Origin: Bacteroidota bacterium
Lineage (GTDB): Bacteria; Bacteroidota; Bacteroidia; J057
NCBI GenBank assembly: GCA_003696835.1
Contig: RFHT01000267.1
Coordinates: forward strand, 1-32,237
Reading direction: 5' to 3'
Length of the DNA stretch: 32,237 nucleotides
The notes under the pieces are model-generated. The model was not told the origin of the DNA. It searched no databases and saw only the letters and a list, made by a program, of their open reading frames with translations. Of this stretch, positions 853 through 6,613 are shown piece by piece. The stretch's first letter is position 1; every line of letters begins with the position of its first letter. Both the position numbers and the translations under genes were made by a program.

Positions 853-2697
853 TTAAAGATGGTTGAGAATGGCAGTTTTGAGTTCCGACACAGTAAAGGG
901 AAGTCCCTGTACTTTGTTGTATTGCTCGAAGGTATATTCGGGAAACTGCATGCGGAAAATATTGACCAACTGGCCCAGGTTGAGCTCACATACGAGTATT
1001 TTGTTAAATTTTCCCAGTAACTCCCTGGTGTTCTTGGGGAAGGGGTTGAGGTAATTGAAATGGGCCAGGCTGAGGTCATTCCCCTGGGCCTGCAGCTCTT
1101 CAACGGCTGTGAGCAGGGCGCCATAAGTGCTTCCCCATCCTACCACCAGCAATTCTCCTTCATCCTTACCCACTACGCCCTGGGGAGGGATGTCATGGGC
1201 TACCCGGGCTACTTTTTCGGCCCGCAGGCGGGTCATTTCCTCGTGGTTAAGGGGGTCGTAGGAAACGTGGCCGGTAATAGCCGCTTTTTCCAGGCCACCT
1301 ATGCGGTGTTCTTTGCCCGGCATACCAGGCACTGCCCATTGGCGCGAAAGCCTGGCGGCTTCTCTGCGGTAGGGTTCATAAATTTGGCCGTTGGAATCTG
1401 CCCGGGGGTGTGGAGCATGAATGTCAGGCAGATCCGCCATCTTGGGAAACTTCCAGGGTTCAGAACCATTAGCCAGGTAAGCATCCGAAAGAAACATAAC
1501 TGGGGTCATGTGTTCAATGGAAAGGCGCACCGCTTCGAAGGCTAAATAAAAACAGCTGGCAGGTGTGTGGGGAGCCAGCACGATGGCCGGGCTTTCGCTG
1601 TTTCTGCCAAACATGGCCATGTACAGGTCGGCCTGCTCGGTTTTGGTTGGCAGCCCGGTGGAGGGCCCCCCCCGCTGAATGTCGAGCACTACCAGGGGCA
1701 GCTCTGTCATGATGGCCAGCCCAATGGCTTCTCCTTTGAGGGCTATGCCGGGCCCGGCCGAGGCGGTAATGCCGATATGGCCCGCATAGCTGGCGCCAAT
1801 GGCACTACATACGGCAGCGATTTCATCTTCGGCCTGCATGGTGATGACGCCCAGGTGTTTATGCTTTGCCAGCTCGTGTAATACATCCGAAGCCGGCGTG
1901 ATGGGGTAGGAGCCGTAAAAAAGGGTTTTGCCCAACTTTTCTCTTGCCGCCATGAGCCCCCAGGCTGTGGCTACATTGCCTGAAATGTGCCGGTAACGCC
2001 CCTTTTCCTGTCTGGCGGGCAGTATCTTATAGGCCGAAGGCAAAGCCTCAACGGTTTCGGCATAATAATAACCAGCCTCCAGGGCGCGTTTGTTGGCAGC
2101 CACAACTTCAGGGTGCTTGCCGAATTTTTGTTGCAGGGTATGAAGCGTATGCTCCATTTTACGGTCAAACAGCCAGTATATCATTCCCAGGACAAACATA
2201 TTGCGGCATCGCATCACCGACTTGTTGTCCAGGCCTGAATCTGCTAACGCTTTTTTGGTAAGTGATGAGATGGGAGCTGCAATCACCTTATACGCTTCCA
2301 GACTCCCGTCATCCAGGGGATTGGACTCGTAGCCGGCCTTGGCAATGCTGCGCTTGTCGAAGCTATCGGCATCAATAATGATGTTGCCTCCCTTGCGGAT
2401 CCACCTCATATTGCTTCGCAGGGCTGCCGGGTTCATAGCCACAAGAACATCGGCCTGGTCGCCGGGAGTAAAAATTTTGACGTGCCCGATTTGAATTTGA
2501 AATCCGGAAACGCCTTCAACCGTCCCTCTGGGGGCACGTATTTCGGCCGGAAAGTCCGGGAAGGTGGCCAGGTCATTGCCTTCCAGTGCAGCAGTGAAGG
2601 TAAATTCATTGCCCGTAAACTGCATGCCATCACCGGAGTCTCCTGCAAAACGAATCACGACCTTGTCGAGTTCGAGCGTTTGGTGGGTTTTTGACAT
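853..2697 (-). CDS. korA: 2-oxoacid:ferredoxin oxidoreductase alpha subunit with fused gamma domain (KorA)
   Basis: A 614-residue catalytic partner of KorB in the cytoplasmic, CoA-dependent oxidative decarboxylation of a 2-oxoacid (probably 2-oxoglutarate). The N-terminal ~190 residues are the gamma domain, starting with IRFAGDSGDGMQFTGN, followed by a linker and the alpha (PFOR pyrimidine-binding) domain with YPITPASDVLHEL near residue 265 and the family motif GGPSTGLPTKTEQADL. The length is normal for gamma-alpha fused KorA. The ATG at 2697 is placed directly before the gamma domain. korB follows after 12 bases. The gene is divergent from oadGAB, with 271 bases between start codons. I found no good TAnnTTTG box upstream on the minus strand. 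Confidence 0.95.
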   Translation of the reverse strand: MSKTHQTLELDKVVIRFAGDSGDGMQFTGNEFTFTAALEGNDLATFPDFPAEIRAPRGTVEGVSGFQIQIGHVKIFTPGDQADVLVAMNPAALRSNMRWIRKGGNIIIDADSFDKRSIAKAGYESNPLDDGSLEAYKVIAAPISSLTKKALADSGLDNKSVMRCRNMFVLGMIYWLFDRKMEHTLHTLQQKFGKHPEVVAANKRALEAGYYYAETVEALPSAYKILPARQEKGRYRHISGNVATAWGLMAAREKLGKTLFYGSYPITPASDVLHELAKHKHLGVITMQAEDEIAAVCSAIGASYAGHIGITASAGPGIALKGEAIGLAIMTELPLVVLDIQRGGPSTGLPTKTEQADLYMAMFGRNSESPAIVLAPHTPASCFYLAFEAVRLSIEHMTPVMFLSDAYLANGSEPWKFPKMADLPDIHAPHPRADSNGQIYEPYRREAARLSRQWAVPGMPGKEHRIGGLEKAAITGHVSYDPLNHEEMTRLRAEKVARVAHDIPPQGVVGKDEGELLVVGWGSTYGALLTAVEELQAQGNDLSLAHFNYLNPFPKNTRELLGKFNKILVCELNLGQLVNIFRMQFPEYTFEQYNKVQGLPFTVSELKTAILNHL

Positions 2698-2968
2698 AAA
2701 TCAGATGCTTGAATAACCCCAATATGAATTCTTATTACGAAAAGTAATCAAAAAGCATGAGACGAAAAAATTTCGCCTGCAAGTAAAACAAAAGTGGGGG
2801 ACTATGGCCAGAAAAACAAATATCATGAATTTTGCTTTGGGTATTAATTCCCCAAATGTCATGGAAAACGTTCGCATTCTATGAAAATCATTGACATAAG
2901 TATTGCAAATCCCTACCTTGTGGCAGACAAGGACTACACGCAGGCGACATAGATGCGCGCTAAAACGC
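2698..2968. other. divergent intergenic region between korA and oadG
   Basis: A 271-base A/T-rich spacer between the divergent korA and oadG starts. It carries one reasonable promoter candidate toward oadG (2891-2920) and a short A/T inverted repeat around 2763-2775 (CGAAA...TTTCG). Open frames that cross it look like translated non-coding sequence and resemble nothing I recognise. I see no RNA gene here. Confidence 0.6.
2891..2920 (+). promoter_or_regulatory. candidate promoter for oadGAB
   Basis: TTG at 2891-2893 is followed after 20 bases by TACCTTG at 2914-2920, one T short of the Bacteroidota -7 consensus TAnnTTTG. The same stretch also reads TTGACA-N17-TACCTT, a sigma70-like layout. 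It lies about 50 bases before the oadG start. The imperfect -7 box makes this a candidate only. Confidence 0.4.
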
Positions 2969-3295
2969 ATGTTTTTTATGCTGAACGAAAACTTTCAACT
3001 CGCATTAACGCTGCTGGCCGTGGGCATGAGTACCGTTTTTTTCATCCTGGGTATGGTGGTACTGGGCGGCCGTTTGCTTATTTTCGTTGTAAATTTCGGC
3101 GAAAAAAAGAGGCAGAAAAAGGGTATTACTCCGGCTGTTTACGGTCGTCATGTATGGGAAAACCCTCCAGAAACATCCAAAGAAAAAACGAACAATATTT
3201 CCCCCGAAAAGATTGCGGCCATCGTAGCCGCTGTGGAAATCTGGTCAGGTGGGCGCGCCCGTATTCAGCATATACGGGCACGCCCCTTTTCCTGA
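2969..3295 (+). CDS. oadG: OadG-type gamma subunit of a Na+-translocating decarboxylase
   Basis: A small 108-residue membrane subunit that holds the alpha (carboxyltransferase/biotin) and beta (Na+ channel) subunits together. It has one N-terminal membrane segment, roughly LALTLLAVGMSTVFFILGMV, then a basic charged stretch (GEKKRQKK) and a C-terminal helix reading PEKIAAIVAAVEIWSGG, as is usual for Bacteroidota OadG proteins. The start is either ATG 2969 or the in-frame ATG 2978; I chose the first. The gene is first in oadG-oadA-oadB, with 70 bases before oadA. The last ~15 codons overlap a strong inverted repeat (see 3251-3285). Confidence 0.85.
   Translation: MFFMLNENFQLALTLLAVGMSTVFFILGMVVLGGRLLIFVVNFGEKKRQKKGITPAVYGRHVWENPPETSKEKTNNISPEKIAAIVAAVEIWSGGRARIQHIRARPFS
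3251..3290 (+). terminator. terminator-like hairpin inside the 3' end of oadG
   Basis: A 14-base arm at 3251-3264 (GGGCGCGCCCGTAT) pairs with 3272-3285 with a single C/A mismatch around a 7-base loop, followed by CCTTTT. It looks like an intrinsic terminator or a processing/attenuation hairpin, but it lies inside coding sequence with the rest of the operon downstream. Function is inferred from structure only. Confidence 0.5.
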
Positions 3296-3305
3296 TCATA
3301 TCAGG
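3291..3305. repeat. short inverted repeat after oadG
   Basis: CCTGAT (3291-3296) and ATCAGG (3300-3305) form a perfect 6-base inverted repeat with a 3-base spacer immediately after the larger hairpin. It overlaps the oadG stop codon. It could be a second small stem in the oadG-oadA leader or an operator-like palindrome; nothing else identifies it. Confidence 0.4.
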
Positions 3306-3365
3306 CCATAATTCAACGCTATTCATTTCAAAAAGGACTACACCATCATCCAAACGAGATAACAA

Positions 3366-5255
3366 ATGGGAAAAACTATTCGCTTTTGTCTGGTTTACCG
3401 GGATATGTGGCAATCATCCGGCAAATACATGCCCAGGATGGACCAACTGGTCAAAGTAGCAGAGCCAATTATTGACATGGGGTGTTTTGCCCGGGTGGAA
3501 ACAAACGGAGGGGGCTTTGAACAAATCAACCTGCTGTTTGGGCAAAACCCCAATAAATCGGTCAGGGCATGGACCCGCCCCTTCCGTCAGGCAGGAATTC
3601 AAACGCAGATGCTGGAGCGTGGCCTCAATGGCATCAGAATGAGTCCGGTACCGGCCGACATCCGGCGTCTGATGTTTCAGGTCAAAAAGAAGCAAGGCAC
3701 TGATATTGCCCGTTCATTTGACGGGCTGAACGACCCCCGGAATCTGGCGCACTCCATTCGCTTTGCCAAAGAGGCAGGCATGGTTGCCCAGGCTGCCTTG
3801 TGCATTACGCATTCTGCTGTGCATACGGTGCCTTATTACATTGAGCTGGCCAGGGAACTCATCGGGATGGGAGCTGAAGAAATCTGTATCAAAGACATGG
3901 CGGGTATTGGCAGGCCGGTTTCATTGGGTAAAATGATTCGGGGTATTAAGGAACAATATCCCGAGATACTGATTCAGTACCATGGGCATTCCGCCCCGGG
4001 TTTTTCGGTGGCCTCCTCTCTGGAAGCCGCGCGCGCGGGAGCCGATATCATTGATGTGGGCATGGAGCCCCTTTCATGGGGCACGGGCCATGCCGACTTG
4101 CTCACCATTCATGCCATGCTGAAGGATGCAGGCTTTGAGCTGCCTGCTATCAACATGAAAGCCTATATGAAGGTGCGCAGTCTTACGCAGGAATTTATAG
4201 ATGATTTTCTGGGCTACTACATCAACCCCCGCAACCGCTACATGAATTCCCTGCTCATAGGACCCGGCCTGCCCGGCGGCATGATGGGCAGCCTCATGGC
4301 CGACCTGGAAAACAACCTGGCCAGCCTTAACAAATGGCTTGAAAAAAGAGGGAAATCCCCCCTCAGCCAGGATGAACTGCTCATCAAGCTGTTTCAGGAA
4401 GTGGAATACATCTGGCCCAAGATGGGCTACCCGCCTCTGGTGACGCCCTACAGCCAGTACGTAAAAAATGTGGCCCTGATGAACGTGATGCAAATGGAAA
4501 AGGGACGGGAGCGTTGGAGCATGATTGACAACAACACCTGGGACATGTTGTTGGGGAAATCCGGGCGTTTGCCCGCCCCCATAGCCGAAGAACTGAAGGA
4601 ACTGGCCATCAAGCAGGGGCGGAAGTTCTACACGGGCAATCCCCAGGACTTATACCCCGACAGCCTGGAGGTATTTCAGGAAGAAATGCACGAGAAAGGC
4701 TGGGATAGTGGGCAAGATGAGGAAGACCTGATGGAGCTTGCCATGCATCCTCAGCAGTTTCGGGCTTACAAATCGGGCAAGGCAGCCAAAGCATTTGAAG
4801 AAGACCTGGCCAGGCGAAAGCTCAGGAACAGCAACCCGCAGCCTACACCGGCCCCTCCGGGTCATGCTTCACTTCCCATGCCCAAAAAGCTAAAGGTAAG
4901 TGTCAACGGCGAACAGTTTGAGGTGGCGCTTTCCTACGAAGGAGAAGATCCCCTGCAAGAAGACAGGCCGGCACAAAGCCAGCAACACCAGCCAGAACAC
5001 AGAGACAACGGCCATGCGGGCCTACAACATATTCTGGCTCCTCTGGAGGGAAAATTTTATCTGACCAGGGAGCCGGGCGAAAAACCCCTGAAGGTGGGCG
5101 ATCAGATAAAGAAAGGCGATACGGTGGGCTATATAGAATCCATGAAGGTGGTCAATGCGATTTTTTCTGATGTGGAAGGAGAAGTAGTAGAGATCTGCTT
5201 TCAGGAGGATGAGCCGGTGCAGGAGGACGATGTACTCATAAAAGTAAAAGCATGA
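3366..5255 (+). CDS. oadA: OadA-like carboxyltransferase/biotinyl alpha subunit of a Na+-pumping decarboxylase
   Basis: A 629-residue protein with a carboxyltransferase TIM barrel (~1-270), a conserved carboxylase domain (~290-480), a Pro/Gln-rich linker and a C-terminal biotinyl domain (~555-629). The biotin lysine is K594 in ESMKVVN. Expected reaction: transfer of CO2 from oxaloacetate (or another carboxyl donor) to biotin, then decarboxylation at the beta subunit. The metal ligands are recognisable: R12-D13, K176 in CIKDMAG, and H206/H208 in YHGHS. The catalytic threonine aligns with T240. The surrounding signatures differ from the classical family: DTTLRDGHQS is replaced by CLVYRDMWQS, and the usual Asp after HxH is Ser. 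The stop overlaps the oadB start (ATGA). The substrate could therefore differ from oxaloacetate; membership in the biotin-dependent decarboxylase complex is secure. Confidence 0.88.
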   Translation: MGKTIRFCLVYRDMWQSSGKYMPRMDQLVKVAEPIIDMGCFARVETNGGGFEQINLLFGQNPNKSVRAWTRPFRQAGIQTQMLERGLNGIRMSPVPADIRRLMFQVKKKQGTDIARSFDGLNDPRNLAHSIRFAKEAGMVAQAALCITHSAVHTVPYYIELARELIGMGAEEICIKDMAGIGRPVSLGKMIRGIKEQYPEILIQYHGHSAPGFSVASSLEAARAGADIIDVGMEPLSWGTGHADLLTIHAMLKDAGFELPAINMKAYMKVRSLTQEFIDDFLGYYINPRNRYMNSLLIGPGLPGGMMGSLMADLENNLASLNKWLEKRGKSPLSQDELLIKLFQEVEYIWPKMGYPPLVTPYSQYVKNVALMNVMQMEKGRERWSMIDNNTWDMLLGKSGRLPAPIAEELKELAIKQGRKFYTGNPQDLYPDSLEVFQEEMHEKGWDSGQDEEDLMELAMHPQQFRAYKSGKAAKAFEEDLARRKLRNSNPQPTPAPPGHASLPMPKKLKVSVNGEQFEVALSYEGEDPLQEDRPAQSQQHQPEHRDNGHAGLQHILAPLEGKFYLTREPGEKPLKVGDQIKKGDTVGYIESMKVVNAIFSDVEGEVVEICFQEDEPVQEDDVLIKVKA

Positions 5256-6613
5256 AGCTGATTGAAAGTATATATGAGATGACGGCTCTGCAGGAACTCG
5301 GCCGGCATCCAACCATACTGCTGATGCTGGGCATGGCCTGTTTGTTGTTATACCTGGGTATTCACAAAAAATTTGAGCCGCTGTTGCTGGTGCCTATTGC
5401 CTTTGGGGTATTGCTGGCCAATTTTCCCGGAGGAAACATGGGGGTGATATCTGAAGATGAACTGGTGGCAAAGCTCCTGGCAGATGAGCATTTCCGGGGA
5501 ATGGTCGGTTCATACTTGCCTGGTGGACAACTGGAACAGGCTGCGCCGGATGCCGAGGGCCGAATCAGCTATGAGGCTGCCCTGGAAATGGCAGAAAACA
5601 TGGAGCCTGCAGCCAAAGAGGCTGTGATGGCAGGTACTTCTTTGCTCACCATTGCCAAAAAAGGGGGCATACTGAGTTTTTTGTACTATGCGTTGATCAA
5701 GACGGGTTTTTTGCCCCCCATTATTTTTATGGGAGTGGGAGCCCTGACCGATTTTGGCCCCATGCTGCGAAATTTGCGCCTGGCATTTTTTGGGGCTGCG
5801 GCTCAAATTGGCATTTTCGCCGTATTATTTGGGGCACTTTTTGCCGGATTTAGCATGCAGGAGGCCGCTGCCCTGGGCATTATTGGGGGTGCCGATGGGC
5901 CTACCGCAATTTACACCACCATTTTGCTTGCTCCTCACCTATTGGGGCCTATTGCCATAGCGGCCTATTCCTACATGGCCCTGGTGCCGGTGATCATTCC
6001 CTTTGTGGTAAAGTTTACCATGAACAAAGGAGAACTGGCCATTAACATGAAAAAAATGGATGAGCGTTACCCGCCGAAATTGCCCCTGAAAAATCCGCGA
6101 AAGGTGAAGCTCTTATTTCCCGTCTTACTGGGCATGCTGGTGGCACTCATGGTGCCTTCTTCTGTACCTCTGGTGGGCATGTTGCTTTTTGGCAACCTCA
6201 TCAAGGAAGCGGGCAGTATGACCGAAAGGCTCCACAGGGCTGCTTCAGGTCCTATTTTAAACGTGGCTACCATTTTTTTGGGCCTCACGGTAGGAGCTAC
6301 CATGACGGCAGATGCATTTGTCAACCCCAAAACCCTGATGATCGTCCTGGGAGGGTTTGTGGCATTTGCTATATCCATAGCCGGAGGTATTCTGGCAGTA
6401 AAAATCTACAACCTCTTTGCCCAGAAAAAGATCAACCCCCTCGTGGGGGCAACTGGTCTGAGTGCAGTGCCCATGGCCTCGCGTGTAGCCAACGAGCTGG
6501 CTCTGCGGCACGACCGCAGCAATCACATCCTGCAATATTGCATGGCCAGCAATATTTCTGGGGTAATCGGTTCGGCAGTTGCTGCCGGGGTACTCATTTC
6601 ATTTTTGAGCTGA
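5252..6613 (+). CDS. oadB: OadB-type beta subunit, Na+-translocating decarboxylase
   Basis: A 453-residue polytopic membrane protein that decarboxylates carboxybiotin and exports Na+. The family signature GGADGPTAIY is present near residue 212 (the Asp of this motif is essential in studied OadB proteins), together with LVGATGLSAVPMASRVAN and a C-terminal SGVIGSAVAAGV. About 75 polar residues are inserted between the second and third hydrophobic segments (~60-125), making it longer than short OadB proteins. The ATG at 5252 overlaps the oadA stop by 4 bases, implying translational coupling. The gene converges on the next minus-strand gene with 8 bases between stops and no obvious terminator. 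Confidence 0.93.
   Translation: MKLIESIYEMTALQELGRHPTILLMLGMACLLLYLGIHKKFEPLLLVPIAFGVLLANFPGGNMGVISEDELVAKLLADEHFRGMVGSYLPGGQLEQAAPDAEGRISYEAALEMAENMEPAAKEAVMAGTSLLTIAKKGGILSFLYYALIKTGFLPPIIFMGVGALTDFGPMLRNLRLAFFGAAAQIGIFAVLFGALFAGFSMQEAAALGIIGGADGPTAIYTTILLAPHLLGPIAIAAYSYMALVPVIIPFVVKFTMNKGELAINMKKMDERYPPKLPLKNPRKVKLLFPVLLGMLVALMVPSSVPLVGMLLFGNLIKEAGSMTERLHRAASGPILNVATIFLGLTVGATMTADAFVNPKTLMIVLGGFVAFAISIAGGILAVKIYNLFAQKKINPLVGATGLSAVPMASRVANELALRHDRSNHILQYCMASNISGVIGSAVAAGVLISFLS

Follow-up and report, generated by a model that had tools for sequence, protein, structure and literature searches.

The open reading frame at 3366–5255 on the forward strand of the window (the whole stretch of 32,237 nucleotides that was analysed) probably encodes the alpha subunit, here called P0001, of a biotin-dependent Na+-translocating decarboxylase of the G-A-B type, belonging to a distinct family in Bacteroidota and with oxaloacetate as its likeliest substrate. 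The family is apparently a separate branch of the keto-acid-driven sodium-pump decarboxylases and, as the first-pass annotation of this DNA had supposed, it comes without an assay: none of any family member was found in the parts of the open PMC literature searched. The reading is built on the domains, the conserved gene order, the kept Na+-site, metal, 2-oxoacid, threonine and biotin positions and the carboxyltransferase (CT) fold, and it is further favoured by family modules at the carboxyl-loader position of three acyl-CoA carboxylase operons and by the window's own genome (89% complete), which has one OadB and a single other PF02436 match. Against it stand the replacement of biotin-side residues of pyruvate carboxylase (PC) and OadA, a glutamine at H208 in 7 of 89 A-type members and the weak OadG match. 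Gene order, domains, conserved residues and the separate clade are read from the sequences themselves.

The operon and its membrane partner

The window is part of a 6.19 Mb draft genome in 842 contigs, 89% complete, and the following features make up the operon:

2969–3295, + strand, OadG-like gamma subunit (PF04277, E = 2.8e-7, 31.6 bits against a cut-off of 27)
3366–5255, + strand, alpha subunit P0001, 629 aa (Pfam HMGL-like, PYC_OADA and Biotin_lipoyl)
5085–5243, + strand, biotinyl (BCCP) domain, residues 574–626 (PF00364, E = 4.2e-12)
5145–5147, + strand, predicted biotin lysine K594 in ESMK (lysine in 89 of 89 A-type members)
5252–6613, + strand, OadB-like beta subunit, carboxybiotin decarboxylase/Na+ pump (PF03977, E = 2.1e-126)

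P0001 consists of a TIM-barrel CT, a PYC_OADA domain and a C-terminal biotinyl domain. The OadG-like gene, with an ATG at 2969 and a second at 2978, lies on the same strand directly 5' of the alpha gene; its match is weak, the NCBIfam gamma score being 18 against a cut-off of 84 bits, and the start of the OadB gene overlaps the end of the P0001 gene. The G-A-B order of the Salmonella locus, the TIM-barrel CT, the PYC_OADA domain and the fused biotinyl domain are all shared with the OadGAB systems of Klebsiella, Salmonella and Vibrio, whereas the tail of the window's OadG is without the His cluster present in the Salmonella copy.

The neighbourhoods of 80 sources with a family ORF (79 of 80 loci and the window) were compared: 76 of these have an OadB-like gene 3' of it in the same orientation, with a median gap of 9 bases, and at least 58 an OadG-like gene upstream, the window's own OadG falling outside that cluster. 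OadB adjoins the family member in all 26 named genomes (coordinates compared by eye) and is the sole OAD_beta match in 6 of them, as it is in the window's genome at its 89% completeness, while 20 of the 26 hold at least one further PF03977 match, mostly open frames of about 390 aa, with one 63-residue piece and two parts of one split gene among them. The OadB of the window conserves D203, S382 and N412, which are Na+-site residues of the Salmonella pump, as well as Y229, N373, G377 and R389; the roles of these residues come from PMC7274780, in whose available text changes at R389 are described as causing no severe inhibition.

Two other neighbours were rejected as partners, an aspartate kinase gene, which occurs in 12 sources only and always on the opposite strand, and the gene at 853–2697, which is absent from the 30 commonest neighbour clusters. 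The latter is divergent from the operon, on the minus strand, and scores over the cut-off of TIGR03710; its product is the alpha subunit of a 2-oxoacid:acceptor oxidoreductase in fused form. In the available part of PMC7768429, oadB of Petrimonas mucosa and the neighbouring pycB are listed by annotation as oxaloacetate decarboxylase and pyruvate carboxylase, and their adjoining locus numbers suggest that they are a family pair. The Bacteroides strains studied in PMC6281302 are, in the text available, said to have no membrane subunit for a Na+ decarboxylase. In Bacteroides timonensis (L108, genome G323), which is not shown to be one of those strains, there are three OAD_beta matches, one of them beside a family member.

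Pumps that decarboxylate acyl-CoA substrates use a crotonase-type CT (PF01039), and the window's genome has four such matches, separate from P0001. Since P0001 itself is a TIM barrel with its 2-oxoacid contacts kept, and further PF03977 matches are found in most of the named genomes, an acyl-CoA donor (methylmalonyl-, malonyl- or glutaconyl-CoA) is the least probable of the readings considered, even though similar pumps act on methylmalonyl-CoA and glutaconyl-CoA (PMC7274780, in the text available). The one further PF02436 match of the genome is a pyruvate carboxylase in an open frame of 1153 aa, and its four PF02785 matches are all on contigs other than that of P0001. Pump reversal is on record, reportedly through work of Dimroth and Hilpert in 1984, and the complex could thus run mainly backwards, Na+ influx driving biotin carboxylation and the anaplerotic conversion of pyruvate to oxaloacetate. 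With a pyruvate carboxylase already encoded, and decarboxylation strongly favoured (PMC8100219, in the text available), this is quite improbable as the main direction.

The active site of the alpha subunit

P0001 was aligned with PC, OadA, transcarboxylase 5S, PycB and more distant CTs, and residues were counted in 102 distinct family members, 89 of A-type and 13 of B-type, the B-type being those with SWG[KM]VHPD (one A-type row is without the first stretch). The positions concerned are:

3399–3416, + strand, RDMWQS, residues 12–17, holding R12, Q16, the metal ligand D13 and the H-to-W15 change (alignment)
3618–3620, + strand, R85, aligned with R621 of R. etli PC (arginine in 101 of 101 distinct members covering the site)
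3639–3641, + strand, M92 replacing Tyr628 (methionine in 99 and leucine in 2 of 101 covering members)
3891–3893, + strand, K176, predicted metal-site lysine (alignment; kept in 102 of 102)
3981–3989, + strand, H206-G207-H208, predicted metal ligands (alignment and counts)
4083–4097, + strand, TGHAD, residues 240–244, a subtype marker that does not hold the catalytic Thr
4443–4445, + strand, T360, predicted catalytic threonine, aligned with Thr882 of R. etli PC

The frame and the three motifs on which the first-pass annotation had built were confirmed, with CLVYRDMWQS at residues 8–17, HGHSAPG at 206–212 and TGHAD at 240–244. In the 131 family ORFs (102 distinct) RDMWQS is present in 127 and both KDMAG and LVTP[FY]SQ in 131, so that chance or sequencing error does not explain the motifs of P0001. 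In the alignment the metal ligands of PC, OadA and 5S fall on D13, K176, H206 and H208, as had been proposed, and the equivalent of K176 is presumably carbamylated in the relatives. T360, K176 and H206 are conserved in 102/102 distinct members; R12, D13, Q16 and R85, like the changed positions W15 and E52, are constant wherever they are covered (101 members). H208 was rejected as an invariant ligand, being Gln in 7/89 A-type members (L056, L058, L065, L066, L073, L092 and L100). The HGQT found there in place of HGHS replaces one metal-ligand histidine and belongs to a block shared locally across several families.

R12, Q16 and R85 are the equivalents of R548, Q552 and R621 in R. etli PC, which we take to be contacts of the 2-oxoacid, while E52 and M92 stand at the places of D590 and Tyr628, presumably a biotin-side and a biotin-pocket residue. 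R548, Q552, D590, R621 and Y628 of R. etli PC each carry a number one above that of the aligned residue in S. meliloti PC. The same shift holds for Thr882, which falls in VTPSSK and is found at 881 in S. meliloti, and this agreement backs its mapping; the numbers taken for the metal histidines of PC do not fit this offset. Thr882 is essential in R. etli PC (PMC5895798, in the text available) and matches T360, within VTPxSQ, which is threonine in 89/89 A-type and 13/13 B-type members. T240, which the earlier annotation had named as the catalytic threonine, is K or M in 13/13 B-type members, and that assignment was wrong. The same annotation described a rewritten hallmark; the motifs do differ, but its yardsticks TSQPS and HTHDTSG are those of PC, and as Salmonella OadA has MSATYGH and HCHATTG, and thus is also without them, P0001 differs less from true OadA than was claimed.

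Compared with OadGAB, the metal ligands, the T360 position and the Na+-site residues of OadB are the same by alignment, whereas P0001 has W15 for His, E52, M92, an SWGTGHAD loop and a 16-residue insert at about 317–332, and its CT is 24–26% identical to 2nx9. With the PC CT domain and PycB it shares the fold, the metal site, the R/Q/R contacts and VTPxS, and it differs from them by having OadB and not biotin carboxylase as partner and by being without TSQPS, HTHDTSG and VTPSSK. The best PDB sequence match of P0001 (159 bits) is transcarboxylase 5S of Propionibacterium (1rqb), which has the fold, metal site and KDM in common with it; 5S uses a separate carrier and has no membrane partner, while the carrier is fused in P0001.

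An AlphaFold2 model of P0001, built from an alignment with 40 of the 80 loci, had a mean pLDDT of 80.7 and a pTM of 0.77, with pLDDT below 50 at residues 290–308, 357–361, 491–507, 512–514 and 522–550; T360 lies within the weakly modelled loop 357–361 and its assignment is alignment-based. The CT part matched PycB (Z 39.2, 438 residues, rmsd 2.6), the V. cholerae OadA CT (2nx9; Z 38.1, 435 residues, rmsd 2.6), 5S (1rqb; Z 37.7–38.0, 434 residues, rmsd 2.7) and the R. etli PC CT (Z 36.8, 440 residues, rmsd 2.7), the overall range being Z 36–39 over about 435–448 residues. A fold in common tells nothing of the substrate.

Judged by the alignment, the 2-oxoacid and metal side of the predicted site is largely kept and the adjoining loop and the biotin side differ. 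A change of carboxyl-donor specificity, as proposed in the first-pass annotation, finds no support in these residues; with the key catalytic residues intact, the usual substrate is probable. The donor, a beta-carboxylated 2-oxo-acid and most probably oxaloacetate, would bind the metal (held by D13, K176, H206 and H208) through its keto group and R85/R12/Q16 through its carboxylate. T360 would shuttle the proton as the biotin on K594 takes over the carboxyl group and pyruvate is left; OadG may tether alpha to OadB, which would decarboxylate the carboxybiotin and move Na+ out. W15, E52, M92 and the 237–244 loop would then form a rebuilt biotin side of the pocket, not a new donor site. Substrate, direction and pumping of the GAB complex are what we infer from these positions and partners.

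The same machine might instead take another beta-carboxylated 2-oxo-acid, e.g. oxalosuccinate, the loops marking a true specificity change. The rewritten loops around the site, the long stem of the family and the divergent oxidoreductase alpha gene at 853–2697 would fit, and 2-oxoglutarate carboxylase is among the known relatives of CTs; with the 2-oxoacid contacts conserved and the oxidoreductase outside the commonest neighbour clusters such a donor is nevertheless unlikely.

Position and distribution of the family

P0001 scored below the cut-offs of the models for OadA, 5S and PycB: 267.3 against 756.5 bits for TIGR01108 (OadA equivalog), 191 against 827 bits for NF008984 (transcarboxylase 5S), and 313 against 402 and 211 against 734 for the PycB models NF006761 and NF010644. 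Salmonella OadA gives 296 bits with a piece of S. aureus PC and 133 with P0001. For the phylogeny, distinct members (26 of A-type, 11 of B-type) were combined with references, among them only two OadA rows, to give 60 rows. In the resulting tree, whose root is not inferred, the family formed a single clade (100/100) with a stem measuring 3.0 changes per column; OadA, 5S, PycB, PC and further divergent rows fell on the far side of a 99/98 branch, and two other divergent CT types on the side of the family. AU tests rejected a grouping of the family with OadA (p = 0.00382) and with 5S (p = 0.028), and did not reject a grouping with PC (p = 0.115); the tree, for which the program warned of meeting long branches, thus fixes no single sister group. 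The subfamily status suggested earlier was borne out, the family being set apart from characterised OadA in the tree check that had been proposed for it. As P0001 lies outside the OadA clade and far below the TIGR01108 cut-off, its substrate is not transferable by orthology. The observed fold and partners would also suit an ordinary OadA that had diverged by neutral drift; as the changed positions W15 and E52 are fixed throughout the family and the grouping with OadA is rejected, this is highly improbable.

At least 597 stretches of GTDB r220 contigs fit the family patterns and at least 587 were confirmed, in line with the earlier impression of an established subfamily; among the best 80 of these, which were retained, 77 of 78 distinct family rows are from Bacteroidota and one is given without phylum. 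The distribution is patchy, not universal: the family was found in 10/295 genomes of the class sample at E <= 1e-100 and in 6/22 genomes of its own order at E <= 1e-40. Bacteroides, Phocaeicola, Parabacteroides and Petrimonas are among the genera that have it. Viral carriage was rejected, as none of 36 pattern matches in viral contigs was confirmed.

Database annotations are vague or inherited in the records examined, a Parabacteroides copy being called just "biotin/lipoyl-containing protein". Pathway listings of gut Bacteroidota name oadA/oadB, OadA1 and PycB by annotation (PMC11238397 and PMC11304471, available text), and in the available text of PMC11405475 the gut Bacteroidota pathways leave oxaloacetate decarboxylase and OadA/PycB unnamed. 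The available parts of that paper and of PMC7568257, PMC11575231, PMC8473912 and PMC8931616 hold no assay of the family; PMC3199775, in its available text, excluded 'extremely divergent' homologues resembling transcarboxylases.

Further deeply divergent CT families were seen on long branches (L041, L042, L043 and L139–L142), with hosts from the same phylum sample or named Bacteroidota, and L041–L043 end in a biotinyl domain. A divergent CT on a Rhizobium leguminosarum plasmid (L134, 222–9381) stands beside a PEP-utilizing enzyme, a PEP/pyruvate-binding protein and a carrier, with biotin carboxylase and acetoacetate-CoA ligase adjoining; this cluster looks like a biotin-dependent ketone carboxylase.

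B-type paralogues and an apparently rearranged carboxylase operon

The B-type members form one clade nested inside the A-type (100/99). The biotin-lysine column is without lysine in 11/13 of them, L174 having one close by, and no obvious OadB gene was seen by eye in 12 B-type stretches. A carrier-like end without the biotin lysine (e.g. STPWGEYEK) is present in L133 (7974–9752), L005, L038, L166–L169, L173, L174, L176 and L178, and the B. finegoldii B-type copy is annotated 'hypothetical protein'. The genomes in which only B-type was found, G461, G487, G485, G510 and G230, have a single OadB on another contig or far away; in G588 (92% complete), with B-type and no A-type seen, there was no OadB match.

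Two of the B-type members, those of G487 (L177) and G461 (L175), and in addition a protein of G588 (L204) are fusions of 718–720 aa with a normal biotinyl domain at the end, an arrangement found in 3/12 genomes of that order. In L177 the fusion occupies 4257–6410 and its CT beta gene 1728–3332. Their operons, with the stretch used for comparison, are:

L177, 1728–9999, fusion operon
L175, 93–8705, fusion operon
L204, 675–8709, fusion operon
L198, 376–7641, operon for comparison, from a fourth relative with the biotin-carboxylase form

In front of the fusion are genes for a crotonase-type CT and for an enoyl-CoA hydratase; behind it come an acyl-CoA dehydrogenase and an HMG-CoA-lyase-like gene, with a 3-oxoacid CoA-transferase also present in the G487 operon, a layout resembling leucine degradation. 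Other ORFs interrupt the series: L177 has a secreted protein of rhodanese type, which inspection by eye also shows in L204, and such inspection gives an ORF resembling an ATPase in L175. Scans covered seven proteins of L177 and three of L175, the other genes being identified by eye; the CT scored 310 with mmdA against a curated cut-off of 999, the hydratase 244 with gamma-carboxygeranoyl-CoA hydratase against 426 and the lyase 185 against 246. As these NCBIfam matches fall below the cut-offs, the acyl-CoA substrate is deduced from gene order and might also be geranyl-CoA or a different one.

The fourth genome of family f109, G574, has at the equivalent place a 667-aa alpha subunit with a biotin carboxylase domain. 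Over their last 200 residues this subunit and the fusions are 37–39% identical (E = 8e-36 to 4e-32), whereas no significant similarity was found between the front halves; the CT beta subunits of G574 and the three fusion genomes are 76–78% identical. From this it appears that in the alpha subunit of an acyl-CoA carboxylase, probably one for methylcrotonyl-CoA, the biotin carboxylase half was swapped for a P0001-family CT. Among the systems compared, 3-methylcrotonyl-CoA carboxylase-like operons share with these f109 relatives, and with them only, the BT-BCCP end and the place of the alpha subunit, the difference being the replaced half. The main rival is a biotin carboxylase encoded elsewhere that could act on the fusion in trans, G461 and G487 having one PF02785 match each elsewhere, beside another CT gene; the one PF02785 match of G574 is the operon subunit itself.

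The reaction of the fusion would likely be oxaloacetate + 3-methylcrotonyl-CoA -> pyruvate + 3-methylglutaconyl-CoA, and the swapped operon supports a P0001-family CT that loads biotin from a soluble donor. Tentatively, the family CT may be a portable carboxyl loader, which with OadB makes a Na+ pump and as B-type an ATP-independent oxaloacetate:3-methylcrotonyl-CoA transcarboxylase of leucine degradation; the f109 relatives seem, by their gene content, rewired to feed another enzyme without ATP. We know of no natural biotin transcarboxylase besides that of Propionibacterium, and if the proposal is true this would be a second one; no methylcrotonyl-CoA transcarboxylase was found in the parts of the open PMC literature searched. 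The swapped operon would then show how the exchange of one domain can move a carboxylase from ATP to a keto acid as its source of energy. P0001 would belong to a sister of OadA that works like it, with oxaloacetate the likeliest donor, and the substrate of the family would tell whether these bacteria regain the energy of oxaloacetate decarboxylation as a sodium gradient.
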